A stretch of 64,000 nucleotides of DNA from a virus. The translations under genes were made by a program, and so were the position numbers. This document shows, piece after piece, positions 7,481 through 49,264 of the stretch (the first letter of the stretch is position 1; each line of letters opens with the position of its first letter). The notes under the pieces are model-generated. The model saw nothing but the letters and a program-made list of their open reading frames with translations. It searched no databases and had not been told where the DNA came from. The stretch is taken from positions 28,875-92,874 of the IMG/VR virus record IMGVR_UViG_3300044641_004856; one strand, 5' to 3'.

Positions 7481-10195
7481 ATGGCAGAATTAAACGATTC
7501 GTTAAAACAAACCGACGAATTGTTATCCAGCATTGTCAAAAGTCTGACCTCTGCTGAGCAAATAACTAAACGCCTTGAAGGTTCTATGGGTGGAGTTGCT
7601 GGAAAAGCAAAGTCTGCTAAGGGTGGTGGTGACCGACATATCGGTACGGGTCAACATAGCCAAATGCCACACATGGACAAAGTAACTTTTAGTGGACAAG
7701 AAAAAGTTGATAGCACTGCAGAAATTGCTATGCGAGAGGGTATGGAGGCCACTAGATATGGCTTAACCCCTACTCGTGGTCAAAAATTATTGGGAGTTGG
7801 TCAAGGACTTGCACAAGCAACCTTTGGTATTGCTGCTGGAGCAATGGCTGCAATGCCAGGAGTTGCCGAAGTTGGTGCAAGTGCTGGTAACTATTACGGA
7901 GCATCTATTCGTTCTAATATGAGCCGTACTTCAATAATGAATGCCACTTTTGGTGGTTTAGCAGGTGGAGTTACGAGCACTCTTTCTTCTTCAAATATTG
8001 CAAGTATTGCTGCAGCAAGAGGCATTATGCCAGGAAGTGCTCAATACAATGCTTTAGTTGCAGATGTTGGTGGTGCTGCACGGTATATGAACATGGCAAA
8101 TGAAAACGCTATGGTTGCCATGTCTGGTTTTACTCAAGGAGACTTTTCCTCTCGTTTATACAACATTGGTGTTAGCACTTACGATTCAAAAACTGGTAAG
8201 GCTCGAGGCCAAGATGAAATTTTTGGTCAACTCTACGGTCGTCTCACTCAAGGTCAAGGAAAAATGAGTGTAGAAGAGACTATGAATAGTTTTCAAGCAG
8301 GTGGTTTTAACAAAGCAGTTACTGATTTAGGAATGACAGAAGACCAAAGACAACTTTTTATGCAATATTCTGTTGATAGAGCAGCAGGAAAACCAACTGA
8401 TTTATCTAAACTAGGGTACGGACAAAATCCTCTAGCGGATAAAATGCGTATTACCGCATCTGATACATCGGTTTTAAATACGTACACCGAACCCGTATTA
8501 AAAGGACTTAAAGCAGCAGCCGATTTAATTGAGACCACAGTTAATCCTGCATTAGAAAAATTGGCTGGTACTGCAGGAGTGGCATCAGGATTTTTAGGTG
8601 GTATGGGTGAATCACGTGCAGGAATGGGCATGGGTATCGCTGGTGGTGGAATTGTTCAAGGATTGATGACTGCTGGTGGTGCTTTCTTAGGTGCTAAAGG
8701 TGCTCAAGGTCTTTTAGGCAAAGGCGGTTCTAGTGGGGTTAAAGCAGGAGGTTTTAAAGGTCTTTTAGGAAAAGCAGGACTTGCTGGATTAACCTACATG
8801 GGATTAGAGCAAGTACAAAAGTTTTTTAACAAAGCAGATGTTCCAGATGAAATGCGTTATATCGCAAACCTTTTATTTGACGCAGGTCAAGGTGGGTTGA
8901 CTGGATTAGCAACAGGAAACCCTTATGCAGCCCTTGCTGGTACAGTCGCAGGCACTGCTGGTGGTGTTGCAAACCCTTACGGTGGTAAAGGCGGTGGTAC
9001 TCCAGGATTTGGTGCTGCTTTTGGTTCTAGTGGCGTAAATAGTGCAAACCCCTCTTCACCAATTACTAATGGTGGTGTAGGAACACCTTACGGTGCTACG
9101 GGAAGTTTATGGTCTGGGGGAAGTCACACAGGTCAAGATTACCCATGTGCTGTTGGAACTCCTGTTCACGCATCATTAGGTGGAATGGTTATTAATACAA
9201 ACCCTGGTTCAGATTACGGTAAAACTGTAGAAATTGACCACGGAAACGGTTATCAAACTTTGTACGGACATTTATCGGAAGTACTGGTCAAAGTTGGAGA
9301 CACTGTTACGCAAGGACAGTTAATTGCAAAAAGTGGTGACACTGGAAAAGTTACAGGTCCTCACTTGCACTATGAAGTACGTAAAGGAAAAAATAACCCA
9401 GTAAATCCTGATGAATTAAGCAAAGCAGGAGGTTCTGGTTTAGCAGGAGTTCTGGGTGCAAGTGGCAATAATGGAACATCTACTAACGGGCAACAGTTAT
9501 CGGCTATGGTTGGTTCTAAATCTTTACAAGAATTACTAAGTGGGGGTATAGGAAATCTTCCTGCTGAACTTTTGGGTAGTGCTAGTAGTAGTAGTGCTAC
9601 AAGTGGTGGAGCAAAGGTAATCCTTGGAACTGGTAGTGAAAAAGAATGGGCTACTGGTCTTCTTCAAAAAATGGGTGCTCCAGTCAGTGATGCTTCTATA
9701 AATGCTCTTACTACATGGATGCGTCATGAAGGTGGACACTGGAAAAACTCTGCTCACTACAATCCTTTAAATACCACATTAGACATGAGTAACAATGAGT
9801 CTATGAATAGTGTGGGAGTAAAACGCTACAAATCTTGGGAAGAAGGATACGCAGCAACTATAGGAACGTTGACAGGAAAAAATGCTGGGGACCGTGGGTA
9901 TACAGCAATTGTAGATGCTTTAAAGTCAGGTGCTTCGACAGATGCTATTTTAGCAGCAGTAAATAACTCAGCATGGATGACTGGTAAAACGGGAAAAAAC
10001 CCTTATAAGTTCCAAGGTGGAGGCTCACCTTCAGTTGCAACACTTAACTCTTCAGCAGGACTAAATATATCTCCGTCTATCACAATTAATGTAAGCGTTC
10101 AACAAGCATCTTACGCTGAGGCTATGAGTCTTGTTGAAATTGTTAAAACTCAACTTGAAAAAGAAAATTTACTTAGAATAGTAGGTGGGAAATAA
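7481..10195 (+). CDS. Tape measure protein with M23 peptidase and lysozyme-like domains
   Basis: 904 aa after AAGGAG. Residues 1-70 are hydrophilic; ~80-500 are Gly/Ala-rich with hydrophobic segments (for example GLAQATFGIAAGAMAAMPG), typical of tape measures. Residues ~540-640 form an M23 endopeptidase: HTGQDY (His ~549), YGHL and HLHYEV (~628) give the zinc ligands. Residues ~720-845 look like a lysozyme-fold hydrolase (MRHEGGHW, HYNPLNTT, SVGVKRYKSWEEGYAA). The protein sets tail length and, on ejection, probably opens the peptidoglycan. Its stop overlaps the next start (TAATG). Confidence 0.88.
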   Translation: MAELNDSLKQTDELLSSIVKSLTSAEQITKRLEGSMGGVAGKAKSAKGGGDRHIGTGQHSQMPHMDKVTFSGQEKVDSTAEIAMREGMEATRYGLTPTRGQKLLGVGQGLAQATFGIAAGAMAAMPGVAEVGASAGNYYGASIRSNMSRTSIMNATFGGLAGGVTSTLSSSNIASIAAARGIMPGSAQYNALVADVGGAARYMNMANENAMVAMSGFTQGDFSSRLYNIGVSTYDSKTGKARGQDEIFGQLYGRLTQGQGKMSVEETMNSFQAGGFNKAVTDLGMTEDQRQLFMQYSVDRAAGKPTDLSKLGYGQNPLADKMRITASDTSVLNTYTEPVLKGLKAAADLIETTVNPALEKLAGTAGVASGFLGGMGESRAGMGMGIAGGGIVQGLMTAGGAFLGAKGAQGLLGKGGSSGVKAGGFKGLLGKAGLAGLTYMGLEQVQKFFNKADVPDEMRYIANLLFDAGQGGLTGLATGNPYAALAGTVAGTAGGVANPYGGKGGGTPGFGAAFGSSGVNSANPSSPITNGGVGTPYGATGSLWSGGSHTGQDYPCAVGTPVHASLGGMVINTNPGSDYGKTVEIDHGNGYQTLYGHLSEVLVKVGDTVTQGQLIAKSGDTGKVTGPHLHYEVRKGKNNPVNPDELSKAGGSGLAGVLGASGNNGTSTNGQQLSAMVGSKSLQELLSGGIGNLPAELLGSASSSSATSGGAKVILGTGSEKEWATGLLQKMGAPVSDASINALTTWMRHEGGHWKNSAHYNPLNTTLDMSNNESMNSVGVKRYKSWEEGYAATIGTLTGKNAGDRGYTAIVDALKSGASTDAILAAVNNSAWMTGKTGKNPYKFQGGGSPSVATLNSSAGLNISPSITINVSVQQASYAEAMSLVEIVKTQLEKENLLRIVGGK

Positions 10196-39294: not shown

Positions 39295-39915
39295 ATGAGT
39301 AATTCAGCCCTTAGTGATGGTCAATTTGCGGAGCACTTAAACAACCCCAACACGGGTGGAGCCTCCTTGAACTTTAAAGACCGAACAGAGGTTTCAGGTA
39401 AAGGGTTTATGACGGCTTTTTCTGGGGCTGAGAAAACACTACCACTACCCGCAAAAGAAGAAGACATAACTTCTTTTAAAGAAAAGAATAAACCTGCAGT
39501 TGAGGGTAATGCAGCAGCAGTTCACGGTGCTTGGAAATACCCAGAGGGACATTACACTCAAGATTTATCAGTACAAGTGTCGACTCCTAGTGCATCTCAA
39601 AAAATGGGAGAAGAGGAAAAACAACAGGCTGCTTACGCATTGCCTGGAAGTCGAGTGTCCAGTCGAGGACATCACCTTAAAGAAGGTGGCGATGTTTTAT
39701 TCCACACTGCTGACTTAGGAAAAAATGATTCAGACCCACGCTATCGCCCAGGTGCGTTAGATATGGCAGGCGGTAAAGGTAGTTTTACTCGTAATCAATA
39801 CGCAAACAAAGACTGGAAAAAAGTTGGTGGAACCTTAAATGGTAAACCAGTTAATTACGAAAGCGTTTTAAGAACAATAAATGAAAACCGCACAAATCGT
39901 ATGAGAGGTGAATAA
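39295..39915 (+). CDS. Hypothetical protein, 206 aa
   Basis: Follows a gap with ATATAGGT before ATG. A largely hydrophilic protein; central DLSVQVSTPSASQKMGEEEKQQAA and C-terminal GRYRPGALDMAGGKG-type Gly turns (SDPRYRPGALDMAGGKGSF is about residues 148-165) give no known family. It opens an eight-gene block of basic or disordered proteins (to 42954). A structural or internal-virion role is conceivable, since such blocks often travel with head genes. Confidence 0.5.
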   Translation: MSNSALSDGQFAEHLNNPNTGGASLNFKDRTEVSGKGFMTAFSGAEKTLPLPAKEEDITSFKEKNKPAVEGNAAAVHGAWKYPEGHYTQDLSVQVSTPSASQKMGEEEKQQAAYALPGSRVSSRGHHLKEGGDVLFHTADLGKNDSDPRYRPGALDMAGGKGSFTRNQYANKDWKKVGGTLNGKPVNYESVLRTINENRTNRMRGE

Positions 39916-40445
39916 TGCCTAGCAGCAGCATGTCTCCAAATCAAGATTGGCAAGCACTTGGTGCAGGTGGTTTGTACGGATATAACAACCAAGGGGGTTC
40001 GGGTGGACCTGCTGTCAGAGATAATTTAGATTTTCAAAGATTAGGTGTAGGACGAGTTCCGTCTGCTGAGTATCCTGACGGATATTTAGGTACACTTACT
40101 ACACGTCGTCGAGATGACAAACTTCTTGATTCACTCAAGAATAACGTTAACAAGAAGGCGTATCAACGAGGTGTTCACAAAGGTGAACGCATTGAGCCAA
40201 GTGGTTATTACTGGCCTACCGAGTTGCAACCGACCCGTGGATTATCACGCCAAATGAATGCGAAAATGGATAATGCCAACGGGACAGTTGTGTATCGGGT
40301 GGCTCGCAATAGCCCAGTGGTTGAACTGACCCCTGCCCCGCATCTCGTTAATGATGGAAAAGCAAACTTACGTGCCGACCAACCTGGACAATTAAATCCA
40401 AAGAGAGCATCTCAACTTTTAAACATGCGTCCTTCTTGGAGATAA
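39915..40445 (+). CDS. Hypothetical protein, 176 aa
   Basis: Start overlaps the upstream TAA. Basic (RRRDDKLLDSLKNNVNKKAY, residues ~66-85) with a Gly-rich N-terminus and a C-terminal HLVNDGKANLRADQPGQLNP segment. No domain recognised. It may be a DNA-associated protein of the block. Confidence 0.45.
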   Translation: MPSSSMSPNQDWQALGAGGLYGYNNQGGSGGPAVRDNLDFQRLGVGRVPSAEYPDGYLGTLTTRRRDDKLLDSLKNNVNKKAYQRGVHKGERIEPSGYYWPTELQPTRGLSRQMNAKMDNANGTVVYRVARNSPVVELTPAPHLVNDGKANLRADQPGQLNPKRASQLLNMRPSWR

Positions 40446-40446
40446 C

Positions 40447-41079
40447 ATGGCAGAGGAATTAGCAAAGCGGGTTGTTTTTAGCCCCATCATGTCGCAACAG
40501 TTGATGCAAAAGAATGTTGACAACATTACTTCTCGCTTCAAATCAGCCACTAAAGAACAACGGGCTGAAGGTGTAGATTGGTATAAAAGAGCCAATGACA
40601 TAGCCTTTGAATTAGGAAAAGGCGATGTTAAAAAAGGTGCTGGCATTTTGTCAGCATTAAGCCCTGCCATGGAGTGGAACCGTAATATCCGTGCTGCTAG
40701 AGAACTAGTAAACACAGGGGAAACAACACATCAGTATTACTCTTCAACAGTTGTTAAAGCCAAAAGAATTTTAGAGGGCGAAGACCCAGACACACTGTTT
40801 AATGAAAAAACAGGTGCAAAGACACTTAATTTTTATCACAATATTGCAAACCCTGAAGACCCTTTGCCAGTAACTATTGACCGTCATGCTCATGATATTG
40901 CGGTAGGTGAAAAAGGTTCTATGACAAAAACCTTAAGCGGTCACTTAGCAGGACCTAGGTATCGCCACTTCTCTGAAGCCTATAGAAACGCTGCTCACGA
41001 ATTAGGTATACCAATTGCTAATCAAGTTCAAGCGGTAACATGGGGAACTCAACCAAAGGGAAGACAGGCAAATGGCTAG
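40447..41079 (+). CDS. DUF7178-like helical protein
   Basis: 210 aa starting one base after the upstream stop. Helices with GVDWYKRANDIAFELGKGDV and a hallmark ITIDRHAHDIA-type His segment (here VTIDRHAHDIAVGEK) followed by AAHELGIPIANQVQAVTWGT. This matches a phage family I know only as DUF7178. The H-x-H-D motif could bind a metal, which suggests but does not show an enzyme. Confidence 0.6.
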   Translation: MAEELAKRVVFSPIMSQQLMQKNVDNITSRFKSATKEQRAEGVDWYKRANDIAFELGKGDVKKGAGILSALSPAMEWNRNIRAARELVNTGETTHQYYSSTVVKAKRILEGEDPDTLFNEKTGAKTLNFYHNIANPEDPLPVTIDRHAHDIAVGEKGSMTKTLSGHLAGPRYRHFSEAYRNAAHELGIPIANQVQAVTWGTQPKGRQANG

Positions 41080-41443
41080 AGGTAGTGGAACAGACGGTCG
41101 TTATGACCACACAAAGCCTTGGACTCAACGTCCTCCATTTATGCCTGACCAAGTTGCAAAACGCTGGCAATATAGCGGTCCTTGGTCTTCTAACGAAGAA
41201 CGTTTAACTTCTCAAGCACTAATGGTTATGAATGTTCCAGGTGCAGACATTCAAGCAATGGTTCGCCCTAACCTTCCTCAAATTCGTTTATTTCCAGAAA
41301 AATACGGCTACAACAGAAAAACTTTAGGCATCGATGACATAGTTACTATCGACCGTAATTACATTGAACCAAGAGTTGGTTGGTACTCAGGAGGAGTAGC
41401 AGGTTACACAGGTTCTATGAGAAACAGTTTGGGGAATAATTAA
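41072..41443 (+). CDS. Hypothetical protein, 123 aa
   Basis: Overlaps the previous gene by 8 bases. Central LTSQALMVMNVPGADIQAMV then RLFPEKYGYNRKTLGIDDIV suggests a small folded domain; the ends are Gly/Arg-rich. No family recognised. It sits between the DUF7178-like and zinc-ribbon genes. Confidence 0.45.
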   Translation: MARGSGTDGRYDHTKPWTQRPPFMPDQVAKRWQYSGPWSSNEERLTSQALMVMNVPGADIQAMVRPNLPQIRLFPEKYGYNRKTLGIDDIVTIDRNYIEPRVGWYSGGVAGYTGSMRNSLGNN

Positions 41444-42994: not shown

Positions 42995-43549
42995 ATGGGC
43001 CAAATCCCTCTATTGGGTTCTCGTAAATCTGATGACCACAACTCTGGTCCAGTCATTCGTCTTTTGCACTGCAAAGTGTGTAACAGTATTGAAGAACTTC
43101 CACCTTACACAGGTGCTCCAGAACAAGACTACTTATTAGAAATTGCTTGCGAAAAGCATAAGTTTCCTTCTGGAGAAGAACATAAAGGATTGCTCTTTAT
43201 TGTTCCAGTAAAGGCGTGGGCTAATACAGATGCTCGCAAAGATATGATTCGCCAAATTAAAGGTGGTGGCTCTAAAGGCCTTGACGAAATTGACTCTACT
43301 TTCTACGATACTAAGAGTCAATTTGGTGAAGATGCCATGAACTGCTGGAAGAGCAGAAATAGACCACAAGACAGTTGCCCTGATTATCAGACTGACAGCA
43401 AGAAACTTGTGCCTAATACAAAAAAGGAAAGAAAAGAGTTAGGATTAGACACAACGATGGCAGGACCAAAAAATTACTTGTGTCATTTTTGTCCAATCCA
43501 CGCTAAGGTAGTCCAACGTAAACGACAACTGATGGGAATGTATGACTAA
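42995..43549 (+). CDS. Cysteine-containing conserved phage protein, 184 aa
   Basis: After AAGGAGTAA and a 40-base gap. CKVCNSIEELPPYTGAPE (residues ~27-44), NCWKSRNRPQDSCPDY and YLCHFCPIH suggest several zinc sites; the middle (LLFIVPVKAWANTDARK) is a short beta-helix segment. No family name known to me. Function could be a structural zinc protein. Its end overlaps the next start. Confidence 0.55.
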   Translation: MGQIPLLGSRKSDDHNSGPVIRLLHCKVCNSIEELPPYTGAPEQDYLLEIACEKHKFPSGEEHKGLLFIVPVKAWANTDARKDMIRQIKGGGSKGLDEIDSTFYDTKSQFGEDAMNCWKSRNRPQDSCPDYQTDSKKLVPNTKKERKELGLDTTMAGPKNYLCHFCPIHAKVVQRKRQLMGMYD

Positions 43550-44121: not shown

Positions 44122-45063
44122 ATGAACCGCAACGATGCTTTAACGCGAGTGGTTGGCTCAGTAAACATTTCTGAGGCAACCACTTCGTATTTTTCTAACC
44201 CTGAAAACGAGTTAGACCCTATTTTATTCCAAGGACAGACTGTAAAGCCATGGATTCGTAACAGTCTTTTAAGAATGATAAAAGATTGCTTAGACACAAC
44301 TTATAGGTCACAAGAATCTTGGGCAACTGCGTGGTTAGCAGGTTCAGGTGTTTCTTACCAATGGAAAGTGCAACGTTCACCTGCAGACCTTGATGTATTA
44401 ATCGGCGTGGATTATTTAACCTTTCGACGAAGTAATCCTGAATACACGCAGTTATCTGATACTGAAATTAGCAAGATGATAAACGATGACTTTCGCACCA
44501 AACTTATGCCCAACACTAAAAATTGGGAAGGCTATGAAGTCACCTTCTACGTAAACCCTGGTGCTACAGACATTCGTGTTATCAAACCTTATGCTGCTTA
44601 CGATTTAACACATAGTGAGTGGACAGTGCACCCTGACCCACAAGCACAACCAAAAAGTAATAGAGCATGGGAAGACGCAACACTTCGGGATAAACAAAAA
44701 GCCGTTGAGTTAGTCTCTAGGTATTCAACTGCAACTACAACATTACAAGCAGCCACTAACCCTGCTTCTCGAAGAAACGCTGAGTCACAATTACTTACTG
44801 TTTTAGAACAAGCATCTGCTTTGTGGGATGACATCCACAGTAGTAGAAAGAAAGCCTTTTCTGAAGCAGGAGAAGGCTACGGAGATTTCTACAACTACCG
44901 ATGGCAGGCAGGAAAAAAACTGGGGACTATTGCAGTTCTTCGCGTTATGAAAGATTACCTAGATTCTTTTAAAGAAACCGATGAGTTAGAAACTTACGGC
45001 GTAACACTTCCAGATACACAAACACTTATTCGTAGAGCAGCGACATACAGAACAGGCAGATAA
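44122..45063 (+). CDS. Nucleotidyltransferase-like protein
   Basis: 313 aa after AAATAAAAGC. WLAGSGVSYQWKV followed by SPADLDVLIGVDYL (residues ~72-98) resembles the GSx(n)DxD core of nucleotidyltransferases, in which the two Asp bind metal. The remainder is helical and has a Glu/Lys-rich coil. It may add a nucleotide to a substrate, perhaps RNA or protein, but the acceptor is unknown. Followed by a HAD-like and a TGT-like gene. Confidence 0.55.
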   Translation: MNRNDALTRVVGSVNISEATTSYFSNPENELDPILFQGQTVKPWIRNSLLRMIKDCLDTTYRSQESWATAWLAGSGVSYQWKVQRSPADLDVLIGVDYLTFRRSNPEYTQLSDTEISKMINDDFRTKLMPNTKNWEGYEVTFYVNPGATDIRVIKPYAAYDLTHSEWTVHPDPQAQPKSNRAWEDATLRDKQKAVELVSRYSTATTTLQAATNPASRRNAESQLLTVLEQASALWDDIHSSRKKAFSEAGEGYGDFYNYRWQAGKKLGTIAVLRVMKDYLDSFKETDELETYGVTLPDTQTLIRRAATYRTGR

Positions 45064-45064
45064 C

Positions 45065-45559
45065 TTGAACATACTCGTAGCATTAGAAGGTGTATTAAGT
45101 TCGGATAACAGTGATAACCCAAGCAGAGTCGGTGCTATGGTTTATTACGGATTTAAACCTGCTCATAGAGTTGCAATTTTTACTTCTTGGAGTAAACCTC
45201 AAGCAGAGCATTGGCTAAACGTAAATGGGTTTGTTGGTTATGACGAACTCATTGACAACACCTATGACCTTATTGGTGATGAGTTGGCTCAACGCCAAAT
45301 TACCGTTGCACGGTCAAGACAACAGGTAGAACTCTTGGTCACTGGTGACCCAAAGTTGGCAGCATGGGCATTTGAGCAAGGGCTACCTTCTTTAGTATTA
45401 GCCCACCCAGACACAATGCTTGTGCAAAATCGTCCCGATGCCCCAAAGAAGATGCGGGCTTGGACAGACATTGAAGACGTAATCACCAAAAGAAACATCA
45501 AGCGTTCTTTAGACATGTCTAAAGACGATGATGGTGCTCTTTTTAGATTTGATGACTAA
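45065..45559 (+). CDS. Degenerate HAD-like protein
   Basis: 164 aa from TTG. The order of elements (NILVALEGVLSSDN, VAIFTSWSKPQAEHWL, LVTGDPKLAAWAFEQGLPSL) resembles the HAD fold, but the catalytic DxD position reads ALEGV, so phosphatase activity is likely lost. The SDNSD stretch at codons ~13-17 includes GGATAACAGTGATAAC, part of a repeated DNA motif described elsewhere. It may be a binding protein. Confidence 0.45.
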   Translation: MNILVALEGVLSSDNSDNPSRVGAMVYYGFKPAHRVAIFTSWSKPQAEHWLNVNGFVGYDELIDNTYDLIGDELAQRQITVARSRQQVELLVTGDPKLAAWAFEQGLPSLVLAHPDTMLVQNRPDAPKKMRAWTDIEDVITKRNIKRSLDMSKDDDGALFRFDD

Positions 45560-45561
45560 TT

Positions 45562-47079
45562 ATGAACATTATCTACGGGGGCACCGAAGTTGGCAGCAAC
45601 CGAACGCTGCTCGAATCCATGGGTGTTACCCGCATGGCACTTTCTTTTTACGCTTTAAAGAAGCGTGGATTACCCCAAAAGAAGTTATGGCTAGTCTCTG
45701 AGCACTTCCTACCTACACTAGACATCTTGGTAGATTCTGGCATTGCCCAGGCTGAACGTGATGGGCTGTCTAAAGAGGAACTAACTTCTTTAGGGGCTGA
45801 ATACCAAGAGTTTGTCGCCAATAACCTGGATTCTATTCTGGGGTTTGTTGAAGCAGACTCTCAGACCCTAGGGTTAGATTGGATTCTCCAAGAGCGGGCT
45901 TCCTTTGAGCATGACCCTAAATTGTGGGTTGTATGGCATGACTCCTACGGGCTTCCAACCCTGCGAGAATGGGCTAGACGTTACTCAAATATCGCCATAC
46001 CCCACGCCACTATTGAAGCCTCTACGAGCCTTGCAGGGGTTACTAGAGGGCTGTCTAGCCAGTATGGGACGAAGTTCCACGCCCTAGGCTCAGCCAAGCC
46101 TGATAACCTTCGTCAGATACCGTTTACAACCGCTACGACCCTATCGTGGCTATCTCCCATGAGAAATGGGGAGACCATAATTTGGGACGGAACTAAAATA
46201 GTTCGGTATCCCAAGAAGATGATGGGGCAAGCGAGAAAACGCTACTCGTCAGTAATAGCCAAGGCTAATTTAGACTACGATGCGTTCTTAAAGAACAATG
46301 GGGTGGAATCCTCTAAGGTTGCAGTCTGGTCATACCAACAGTTGGAGAAATCAATGGACAAGAAACGCCCCGACCTTCACATAATTGAGGGGGGAAAAGA
46401 GCCTCTGTTATCTGATAACAGTGAGACACCCCTACTAAGCACTTTCGCGGAAACATGGGGTCACCCTTCTGATAACAGTGACCTAGAGATGCGGAAAGAT
46501 TCTGCGGTAGAAGAGCCTAAAAAGTTGATTGAAAGAGACCCTGAAGAGGTCACAAGCCTACCTGTCTTTGGCTACAAGATGAAGACGATTGTAGACACAG
46601 ATGACGAGGGAAATGACGTTCTAAAAGAAGTCCCTCTAGTCCAAACTACTGGCACTTCTTTACGCCAATGTGACACCTGTTTTGTTGCTTCGAACTGCCC
46701 AGCCTTCAAACCACAGAACTCCTGTGCCTTTAACCTACCTGTTGCTATTCAGACTAAAGAACAGTTAAAAGCCCTATTAAATGCCGTTATAGAGATGCAA
46801 GGAGCACGAGTTGCCTTCTCTCGGTTTGCAGAAGAGTTAAACGGAGGTTACCCTGACCCCAATACTTCGCAAGAGATTGACCGCCTTTTCAAGTTAGTAA
46901 AGGGTATGAAAGAGTTGGAAGAGAACCGCGAGTTCATTAGAATTACAGCAGAACGACAGTCTTCAGGAGGGGTGCTTTCAGCCATCTTTGGAGACCGAGC
47001 ACAGGCACTAAAAGACCTTCCAAATGGGGGTTTGAACGAAGCAGAAACTACGAAAATTATTCAACAAAGCCTAGAATAG
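45562..47079 (+). CDS. TGT/DpdA-like TIM-barrel protein (candidate)
   Basis: 505 aa. Residues ~1-60: IIYGGTEVGSNRTLLESMG, MALSFYALKKRGLP, then LDILVDSGIAQ with a DSG motif like the TGT active-site loop (DSGGFQ). Later EADSQTLGLDW, LWVVWHDSYGLPTLREWA, and KFHALGSAKPDNLRQIPFTT then LSWLSPMRNG are in the order expected of a tRNA-guanine transglycosylase/DpdA barrel. C-terminal ~370-390 has CDTC, NC and SC, a possible zinc site. It may exchange a base in DNA or RNA. No queC/D/E or folE genes are in the window. The family call is inference. Confidence 0.5.
   Translation: MNIIYGGTEVGSNRTLLESMGVTRMALSFYALKKRGLPQKKLWLVSEHFLPTLDILVDSGIAQAERDGLSKEELTSLGAEYQEFVANNLDSILGFVEADSQTLGLDWILQERASFEHDPKLWVVWHDSYGLPTLREWARRYSNIAIPHATIEASTSLAGVTRGLSSQYGTKFHALGSAKPDNLRQIPFTTATTLSWLSPMRNGETIIWDGTKIVRYPKKMMGQARKRYSSVIAKANLDYDAFLKNNGVESSKVAVWSYQQLEKSMDKKRPDLHIIEGGKEPLLSDNSETPLLSTFAETWGHPSDNSDLEMRKDSAVEEPKKLIERDPEEVTSLPVFGYKMKTIVDTDDEGNDVLKEVPLVQTTGTSLRQCDTCFVASNCPAFKPQNSCAFNLPVAIQTKEQLKALLNAVIEMQGARVAFSRFAEELNGGYPDPNTSQEIDRLFKLVKGMKELEENREFIRITAERQSSGGVLSAIFGDRAQALKDLPNGGLNEAETTKIIQQSLE
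46407..46419 (+). promoter_or_regulatory. Palindrome GTTATCTGATAAC, copy 1
   Basis: Perfect 13-bp palindrome, extended to CTGTTATC/GATAACAG (46405-46421). It lies inside the TGT-like gene. A half site TCTGATAACAGTGA recurs near 46469, and an exact 13-mer recurs at 47079. Operator-like, function unproven. Confidence 0.4.
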
Positions 47080-47218: not shown

Positions 47219-49264
47219 ATGTCATTTTTGTCTTTTAATCTTAACGAGGATTTTGTCTCAGGCTTCCGCTCAAAGAAGCCTCCTTTTGGCTACACCGATG
47301 CTGCTGGTAATTCTGTCGGGGAGATAACCTTCTTAAGAACCTATAGCCGTCTCAAAGAGGACGGAACTAAGGAGACTTGGGTTGACGTTTGTGAGCGTGT
47401 AATCAATGGAATGTATTCCCTACAGAAAGACCACGCTAAATCCCAGCGTCTACCTTGGAATGACTCCAAGGCTCAGTCTTCGGCAAAAGAAGCCTTCGAA
47501 CGTCTTTTTGAATTAAAGTGGACTCCACCTGGTCGAGGACTTTGGGTAATGGGAACTTCTTTAGTAAACAAGCACCGCAACTCAGCAGCACTACAAAACT
47601 GTGCTTTTGTCTCTACCGTCGAAATGACCAAAAACAACCCCGCCAAACCTTTTGCTTTCCTCATGGAGGCTTCAATGCTAGGCGTGGGTGTGGGCTTTGA
47701 CGATAAGGGAGCGGATAAAGACTTTACTATCTATGAGCCTTCTAAAGCAGAGGCTAACTTTCAAACCTACGTAATCCCTGATACTCGTGAAGGCTGGGTC
47801 GAGTCTGTAACTCTTCTTTTGAACTCTTACTTAAAGGCTGACCAACCACGTTGGATTTTTGACTACTCTCTGATTCGCCCTGCAGGTGCACCTATCAAAA
47901 TCTTTGGTGGCACTGCTGCTGGACATGAACCTCTTTTGAGACTGCACGATTACCTTTATAAGATGTTTGAAAATCGGGCTGGTGAAAAGGTCACTCGTAA
48001 GGACATAGCAGACATTGGAAACCTTATTGGAGTCTGTGTTGTTTCAGGCAACGTCCGTCGTTCCGCAGAACTTCTTATTGGACGTATTGATGATGAAGAT
48101 TTCCTAAACCTAAAGAACGCAGATGTCTACCCTGAGCGTAACTCCTATGACCCTAAAAATCCTGGTTGGGCTTGGATGTCGAACAACTCTGTAGAAGCAA
48201 CTGTTGGCTCTGATTACTCTAAAATTGTTGACGGCATTATTCTTAATGGAGAACCAGGAATTGTTTGGCTAGATGTTTCAAGAAAATACGGAAGACTTGC
48301 TGACCCTATCAATAACAAAGACCACCGTATCGCTGGCTACAACCCTTGTGCAGAGCAAAGCCTAGAGTCTTTTGAATGTTGCACCTTGGTGGAGACGTAT
48401 CTCAACCGCCACAAAAATAAAGAAGACTTCTTAAGAACTCTAAAGTTTGCTTACCTATACGCAAAGACCGTAACTCTTCTTCCTACACACTGGGAAGAGA
48501 CCAACGCAATCATGCAACGCAATCGTCGCATTGGAACTTCAGTTTCAGGCATGGCTAACTTTGCTGACAATAAAGGCTTACCTGTTTTGCGTGATTGGCT
48601 TAACGAAGGCTACAAACTTGTGAAGAGTTACGACAGCACTTACTCAGAATGGCTTGGTGTTCGTGAGTCAATCAAGATGACAACGGTAAAGCCTTCAGGA
48701 ACAGTTTCAATCCTTGCTGGAGAATCTCCAGGAGTTCACTGGGCTTCAGGTGGTAAGTTCTTTAACAGAGCAATTCGCTTTGCTAACTCTGACCCAATGC
48801 TTCCTCTTTTCAAAATGGCTCAGTATCGAGTTGAGCCTGCTTCTGAATCTCCTGAAACAACTTCTGTTGTCTTCTTCCCGATTAAGACAGAGGCTAAGCG
48901 TGCTGAAAAAGAAGTTTCAATCTACGAAAAAATGGACTTAGCAGCAACTGCTCAGTTCTACTGGAGCGATAACTCTGTATCAGTTACAGTAACTTTCGAC
49001 CCTGAAAAAGAAAGTAAAGAGATTGGAACGGCTTTAAGAATGTTTGAGGGAAGAATGAAAACTGTTTCGTTCTTGCCGATGGGTAACGCTGTGTATCCAC
49101 AAATGCCTTACACGCAGATTACTGAACAAGAATACGAAGATGCAACTATGAAGTTGTTCCCTATTGACCTTGAAGGTGTTTATGCAGGTATGGCTTCAGA
49201 CGCTATCGGTGAGGCTTACTGCACTACAGATGCTTGTGAAGTTAAACTTATAAAAGAAGGTTAA
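47219..49264 (+). CDS. nrdJ: Adenosylcobalamin-dependent (class II) ribonucleotide reductase
   Basis: 681 aa with AAAGG before ATG. NPCAEQSLESFECC (active-site Cys), the preceding NCAFVSTVEM with the N-terminal redox Cys, VCVVSGNVRRSAE, TVKPSGTVSILAG and a C-terminal redox pair CTTDAC. The single-chain layout is that of monomeric B12-dependent triphosphate reductases. It makes deoxynucleotides for phage DNA. The need for cobalamin links it to the CobS/CobT-like genes at the right end. It converges with leftward genes at its stop. Confidence 0.9.
   Translation: MSFLSFNLNEDFVSGFRSKKPPFGYTDAAGNSVGEITFLRTYSRLKEDGTKETWVDVCERVINGMYSLQKDHAKSQRLPWNDSKAQSSAKEAFERLFELKWTPPGRGLWVMGTSLVNKHRNSAALQNCAFVSTVEMTKNNPAKPFAFLMEASMLGVGVGFDDKGADKDFTIYEPSKAEANFQTYVIPDTREGWVESVTLLLNSYLKADQPRWIFDYSLIRPAGAPIKIFGGTAAGHEPLLRLHDYLYKMFENRAGEKVTRKDIADIGNLIGVCVVSGNVRRSAELLIGRIDDEDFLNLKNADVYPERNSYDPKNPGWAWMSNNSVEATVGSDYSKIVDGIILNGEPGIVWLDVSRKYGRLADPINNKDHRIAGYNPCAEQSLESFECCTLVETYLNRHKNKEDFLRTLKFAYLYAKTVTLLPTHWEETNAIMQRNRRIGTSVSGMANFADNKGLPVLRDWLNEGYKLVKSYDSTYSEWLGVRESIKMTTVKPSGTVSILAGESPGVHWASGGKFFNRAIRFANSDPMLPLFKMAQYRVEPASESPETTSVVFFPIKTEAKRAEKEVSIYEKMDLAATAQFYWSDNSVSVTVTFDPEKESKEIGTALRMFEGRMKTVSFLPMGNAVYPQMPYTQITEQEYEDATMKLFPIDLEGVYAGMASDAIGEAYCTTDACEVKLIKEG

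Follow-up and report, generated by a model that had tools for sequence, protein, structure and literature searches.

The fused gene and its surroundings

The window is a 64,000-nucleotide stretch that comprises bases 28875-92874 of the IMG/VR record G000 (92,874 bp), which looks like a contractile-tailed phage from its gene content as read from the ORFs. An ORF on the plus strand at 45562-47079 begins with ATG and encodes a protein of 505 amino acids, and it occupies positions 74436-75950 in the numbering of the full record. The protein joins a DpdA-type barrel to a Cys-cluster/helical domain, and is called the fused protein here. This ORF is a real gene, because relatives are found in more than 500 IMG/VR viral stretches, dN/dS is low, and just 2 nucleotides separate its start from the gene before it, within a gene order that is conserved. 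Both the barrel and the Cys domain are under purifying selection, with dN/dS ratios of about 0.07-0.15 and 0.03-0.10, respectively, which are rough because dS is saturated in several pairs. The ratio for the linker exceeds those of both flanking domains in most pairs. The features of the locus are as follows.

39915..41443, plus strand: block genes b, c and d, of which b and d are conserved and c less so
39915-40445, plus strand: gene b, at 126 of 131 loci, in Streptomyces phages and at four actinobacterial chromosome loci
40447-41079, plus strand: gene c, at 57 of 135 loci; matches phrog_3842 (unknown function), E 1.8e-42
41072-41443, plus strand: gene d, at 131 of 136 loci, in Streptomyces phages and at two of the four chromosome loci of gene b
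42995..43549, plus strand: gene j, Cys-rich, in the same conserved block; at 146 of 148 loci and also in Streptomyces phages and actinobacterial chromosomes
44122..45063, plus strand: nucleotidyltransferase-like gene (named by motif), AGS...DxD...E conserved
45065..45559, plus strand: HAD-like gene (named by eye), immediately upstream of the fused gene
45562..47079, plus strand: fused protein, 505 aa (nucleophile-less DpdA-type barrel, variable linker and Cys-cluster/helical domain); phrog_887 match, purifying selection
45562..46359, plus strand: DpdA/TGT-type TIM-barrel domain, aa 1-266, from AF2, Foldseek, hhalign and a DpdA-only profile
45733..45741, plus strand: D58-S59-G60, counterpart of the DSG general acid/base loop, whose D is present in 10 of 10 aligned DpdAs
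46135..46137, plus strand: T192, in the column of the DpdA nucleophile Asp, from alignment with ten DpdAs
46360..46551, plus strand: linker, aa 267-330, variable and probably disordered; pLDDT mostly about 30, raised dN/dS
46669..46725, plus strand: CxxC-x5-CP-x7-C cluster (C370, C373, C379, C388), a probable Zn or Fe-S site; all four Cys in 159 of 159 relatives
46747..47031, plus strand: helical terminase-small-subunit-like region, aa 396-490, from a TerS profile match; AF2 confidence is low here

There are five Streptomyces phages that carry relatives at about 30% identity over almost the full length, and copies of the fused gene are also found on chromosome contigs of Nonomuraea, Saccharothrix and Streptomyces. 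The 505-aa protein has no match in Pfam or NCBIfam. It is matched over amino acids 1-484 by PHROG 887 (E 5.7e-53), which bears the name 'queuine tRNA-ribosyltransferase', and gene 181 of phage GiJojo is already annotated as a 'dpdA-like tRNA-guanine transglycosylase'. The likeness to PHROG 887, BRock gp36 and GiJojo gp181 encompasses the fused architecture from end to end (about 30% identity) and the gene block. Unlike BRock gp36 and GiJojo gp181, the window copy comes from a lineage in which a ribonucleotide reductase gene adjoins. This gene, of the B12-dependent type, lies directly downstream (window 47219-49264) and is present at 160 of 176 viral-contig loci, and none was found at the corresponding position in the Streptomyces phages. 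The fused proteins all fall on one side of a branch with support of 100/100 in an unrooted tree.

The order b-d-j-nucleotidyltransferase-HAD-fused gene is conserved in viral contigs, and largely so in Streptomyces phages and at actinobacterial chromosome loci. An earlier reading of the DNA from its sequence alone suggested that the nucleotidyltransferase- and HAD-like neighbours could belong to the same system as the 505-aa protein. They do travel with the fused gene (166 of 169 and 177 of 183 loci, respectively), but their names have no support from Pfam, PHROG, NCBIfam or the PDB, and are therefore kept as motif-level labels. Residues A73, G74, S75, D89, D91 and E139 of the nucleotidyltransferase-like protein are each conserved in about 100% of 136 relatives. 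The first Asp of the DxD motif in the HAD-like protein is present in just 7 of 128 relatives, and thus two adjacent genes at this locus look like disabled enzymes.

The barrel and its catalytic positions

Some phages introduce a modified guanine into their DNA by means of the enzyme DpdA. The sequence-only reading placed the protein in the fold of tRNA-guanine transglycosylases (TGT) and phage DpdA, and this is borne out by PHROG 887, a DpdA-only profile, hhalign, AF2 and Foldseek. The homology to phage DpdA/TGT barrels spans residues 38-223 and is far above chance, with hhalign aligning the fused-family barrel to DpdA over this interval at a probability of 99.05 (E 2.2e-18). The AF2 model has a pLDDT of about 63-94, mostly 70-94, for residues 1-266, and the order of strands is that of a barrel. 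Foldseek matches among viral models include DpdA-type proteins of Arthrobacter and Microbacterium phages (E 9e-8 to 5e-7), and those in the PDB are generic TIM barrels along with a weak match at rank 11 to the mouse QTRT1/2 complex. Searches of the PDB by sequence, with protein and profile queries, gave nothing usable, and the fold call thus rests on viral relatives and AF2. The DpdA-only profile, built from Sonali, phiFN37, PS25B.1, Knocker, MT835752 and BS162P1, matches the fused gene in G000 (E 4.8e-12). It has exactly one match, at a DpdA-type locus, in each of 17 of the 19 other fused-type genomes, the two without a match being the divergent members G013 and G014. None of these 20 genomes yielded a second DpdA with this profile.

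The window protein shares with phage DpdA (e.g. Escherichia phage CAjan gp35, Arthrobacter phage Sonali gp87 and Bacteroides phage BS162P1_00087) the barrel, the DSG loop, a counterpart of D99, the VWH and H..G motifs, and an SW motif that follows the nucleophile column. The fused family differs from phage DpdA in that Ser, Thr or Ala replaces the nucleophile Asp, the DSG Asp drifts, preQ0 genes are missing, and an additional C-terminal Cys/helical domain is present. The identities of the nucleophile and acid/base Asp residues, which we take to be those established for TGT and DpdA, were placed on the fused proteins by alignment with ten DpdAs, including those of CAjan, TA17A (a Rosebushvirus) and Salmonella 7-11. 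The nucleophile Asp is present in all ten, within xxDSS or a motif close to it. Among the 159 distinct full-length fused relatives used for residue counts, this column holds Ser in 134, Thr in 22, Ala in 3 and Asp in none. Representative motifs are SCDSSSW in CAjan, TTATTLSW in the window protein and SVSSTSW in BRock, and four actinobacterial chromosome copies likewise lack the Asp (SVASTSW, SASSTTW, SAASTSW and GAASTSW).

The DSG loop that had been noticed in the window protein is indeed found at residues 58-60, and the Streptomyces-type members also retain its Asp. However, the Asp is not a constant feature of the family, and is present in just 43 of 159 relatives, with Glu in 79, Asn in 10, His in 8, Tyr in 8, Phe in 6, Ser in 3 and Thr in 1. 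Residues E97, H173, K179 and D181 are near-invariant among the fused proteins, and therefore catalysis by another nucleophile, or some new chemistry, is possible. The transglycosylase chemistry itself has very probably been lost. Absence of the catalytic aspartates from an alignment is the outcome that the sequence-only reading had itself named as refuting its proposal. The lack of the nucleophile Asp in all 159 relatives speaks against an active transglycosylase but not against the fold, and the earlier proposal that the protein inserts 7-deazaguanine or another base into DNA is not supported. The public names of PHROG 887, BRock gp36 and GiJojo gp181 imply an activity for which the nucleophile is lacking. 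An intact DpdA is needed for modification in CAjan, where deletion of dpdA abolishes it (PMC6884629).

A total of 22 genomes, 20 of them of the fused type and two of a split type described below, were searched with models for QueC, QueD, FolE, Radical_SAM and YhhQ. The lack of preQ genes that had been reported for the window holds for the whole 92,874-bp G000, a possibly incomplete record in which these models match nothing. There are no matches to QueC, QueD, FolE or YhhQ and no recognisable queE among the 20 sizeable fused-type genomes, whose records may be fragments. One of these genomes encodes a lone radical-SAM protein (G015:C1:23055-23477) of a kind not identified as QueE. QueC, QueD and a QueE-like protein are found in both split-type genomes, which are Bacteroides-type phages with an intact DpdA (BS162P1 and MT835482), and FolE is present in BS162P1.

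Genes for preQ0 supply or transport usually accompany phage DpdA but are not obligatory. The occurrence of DpdA in phages that lack preQ0 genes is already known, and Hutinet et al. (PMC6884629) list 76 of them. Among such DpdA-only phages, they report Orion to be unmodified and Salmonella 7-11 to have traces, with low dADG. The fused family resembles this group (group 3 of Hutinet et al. 2019: Salmonella 7-11, Mycobacterium Orion) in carrying a DpdA-type gene without preQ0 genes, but Salmonella 7-11 retains the nucleophile Asp and has no fused Cys domain.

The C-terminal domain and terminase small subunits

The Cys cluster (CDTC...NC...SC, residues 370-388) had been proposed to be a zinc site. 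The cluster is invariant and probably binds Zn or an Fe-S centre, but it is not the zinc site of TGT enzymes. That site has the pattern CxCxxC...H at the end of the barrel, whereas the pattern here is CxxCx5Cx8C in a separable domain. The TGT pattern is also absent from the aligned phage DpdAs.

The split arrangement is represented by just two genomes, BS162P1 and MT835482. Each carries a separate dpdA gene with its Asp intact (SVDSVTW in one, and SSDSS before an intein-like insertion in the other), and the next gene encodes the Cys-cluster domain, with the same motif. No further stand-alone genes for the C-terminal domain were found in the viral contigs searched. The insertion, in the human-gut phage MT835482 (L101:2473-4713), interrupts a dpdA that is canonical in other respects, exactly at its DSS/TTW catalytic motif. 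The gene directly upstream of the terminase large subunit gene (TerL; L237:8805-12057) in BS162P1 encodes QueD, and the TerL homology there is split in two by a gap of about 0.9 kb, which suggests an insertion.

The C-terminal domain of the fused family resembles terminase small subunits (TerS). The comparison of a TerS C-terminal profile with the fused-family C-terminal profile by hhalign gave a probability of 84.7 (E 6.7e-6) and a score of 41.3, and the top score among 40 column-shuffled controls was 23.1. The BRock protein matches phrog_6902 (terminase small subunit) weakly (E 0.0064), and in the reverse direction the Cys regions of the GTE7 and Mbo2 TerS proteins match phrog_887 with E values of 5e-4 and 0.055, respectively. 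A tblastn search with a chromosome copy also pointed at the TerS of Rhodococcus phage Mbo2 (E 3). This 455-aa protein is encoded directly upstream of TerL, and its relatives are found in 115 records of Gordonia, Tsukamurella and Rhodococcus phages.

The TerS proteins of this group (phrog_6902 and phrog_16015; GTE7 gp1, Jumbo gp6, Mbo2 gp1) share with the fused proteins a CxxCx5Cx7-8C motif and a helical C-terminal domain, and their total length is similar (455-544 aa). Those from Gordonia and Rhodococcus phages carry the same Cys motif as the fused proteins. However, their genes lie directly upstream of TerL, unlike the fused gene, and no relationship to DpdA is detectable in the sequence of their N-terminal half. 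Profile comparison of the N-terminal halves of TerS with those of DpdA and the fused proteins was non-significant, even when ReqiDocB7 gp001 was used. The AF2 model of the TerS of Gordonia phage Jumbo is poor (mean pLDDT 53.8). Foldseek searches with this low-confidence model recover the fused-family member A0A6J5L5L3 (E 1.7e-5), A0A6J7XEC0 and A0A8S5QQE4, which are the first, third and second matches of the window protein. Thus, C-terminal kinship between the fused family and the Gordonia/Rhodococcus TerS proteins is likely, and full-length kinship is only suggested. The Gordonia TerS names are labels given by annotators, and these labels are probably based on gene position. No obvious description of a link between DpdA and terminase appears in those parts of the literature covered by our search.

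Two further features of these terminase loci were observed. The gp001 and gp002 genes upstream of terL in Rhodococcus phage ReqiDocB7 (L269:152-1548) correspond to the two halves of a Gordonia-type TerS, and the first three cluster Cys fall outside the annotated ORFs, which points to a defect there, either in the annotation or in the gene itself. The TerL homology of Gordonia phages GMA3 and GordDuk1 (L243, L247) is interrupted by a roughly 1-kb insertion that is an intein or intron candidate.

TerS genes usually adjoin TerL. The TerL (7525-9123) and portal genes lie at the left end of G000, and the fused gene is located about 65 kb away from TerL. The fused or related gene does not adjoin TerL in GiJojo or the Bacteroides phage either. 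The gene upstream of TerL in G000 has a homologue shortly upstream of GiJojo TerL and no known function in PHROGs, and no terminase small subunit was recognised beside TerL or among the head-region genes of G000 that were tested.

Possible functions of the fused protein

The fused protein probably grips DNA and does not modify it, because its catalytic residue is lost and it carries a domain that resembles one of DNA-packaging proteins. We consider, with a probability of roughly 0.5, that the fused gene encodes a catalytically disabled DNA-binding protein of DpdA descent, which may act in packaging as a TerS-like factor. A DNA-binding role seems fairly probable, and the more specific TerS or packaging role is put forward tentatively. 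Perhaps the DpdA barrel has been kept as a module that binds DNA, or modified bases, without base exchange, and the TerS-like C-terminal domain would let the protein serve in genome packaging, or in some related late transaction on DNA, through sequence recognition or oligomerisation. The older state would be an intact DpdA paired with a separate C-terminal protein, and the derived state would combine fusion, loss of catalysis and loss of the preQ0 genes; since the tree is unrooted, we infer this order. The distance of the fused gene from TerL and the confinement of TerS sequence likeness to the C-terminal domain both argue against packaging.

One alternative to this disabled DNA-binding protein is a non-catalytic DNA- or RNA-binding pseudoenzyme that acts outside of packaging with its nucleotidyltransferase- and HAD-like neighbours, for example in anti-restriction, replication or late regulation. 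This is possible, if somewhat doubtful. The block from gene b to the fused gene is conserved in freshwater phages, Streptomyces phages and actinobacterial chromosomes, the HAD-like neighbour has no DxD in most members, and the fused gene lies far from TerL. On the other hand, the likeness of the C-terminal domain to TerS exceeds that of shuffled controls, and the place beside TerL holds no recognised classical TerS. Eukaryotic QTRT2 offers another precedent, as it has no catalytic role and yet is the partner of QTRT1. The fused protein could be a similar subunit paired with a catalytic TGT or DpdA, which would suit the low-ranking Foldseek match to the mouse complex. Such an arrangement is very improbable, given that none of the 20 fused-type genomes has a second DpdA and that these genomes lack preQ0 genes.

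The sequence-only reading favoured an active DpdA-like transglycosylase that uses a host-supplied 7-deazaguanine or some other base, which would now call for a replacement nucleophile. The barrel homology, the DSG Asp in the window protein and the Streptomyces-type members, and the near-invariant E97, H173, K179 and D181 could all belong to such an enzyme, as could the modification traces in some DpdA-only phages (e.g. Salmonella 7-11; PMC6884629). Yet Salmonella 7-11 keeps its Asp and Orion, in the same paper, is unmodified, whereas the nucleophile is missing in 159 of 159 fused relatives and the DSG Asp is replaced in 116 of 159, including by Phe, a residue without an acid/base role. We thus regard this enzyme as improbable. 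The nucleophile is lost and the Cys domain is separate and TerS-like, and therefore there is no need for the host-supplied base, as base-exchange chemistry is unsupported.

A broader evolutionary scheme can be drawn from the disabled DNA-binding protein that we prefer, although we judge it unlikely as a whole. A DNA-modification enzyme would have become a genome-packaging recognition subunit in a large actinobacterial myovirus lineage, its DpdA barrel first being paired with and then fused to a TerS-type domain as the chemistry was lost. The large TerS proteins of Gordonia and Rhodococcus phages would then be further-diverged members of the same architecture.

The public names 'queuine tRNA-ribosyltransferase' and 'dpdA-like transglycosylase' would count such genes as evidence of 7-deazaguanine DNA. 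No part of the fused family should be counted in this manner, as the nucleophile column shows. If the link to packaging is true, an abundant phage lineage with no recognised terminase small subunit gains a candidate for one in the fused protein, and a DNA-modification fold has been put to a second use in DNA recognition. In the Bacteroides-type phages, where adjacent genes encode an intact DpdA and a TerS-like protein, it can be tested directly whether base modification and packaging are coupled.
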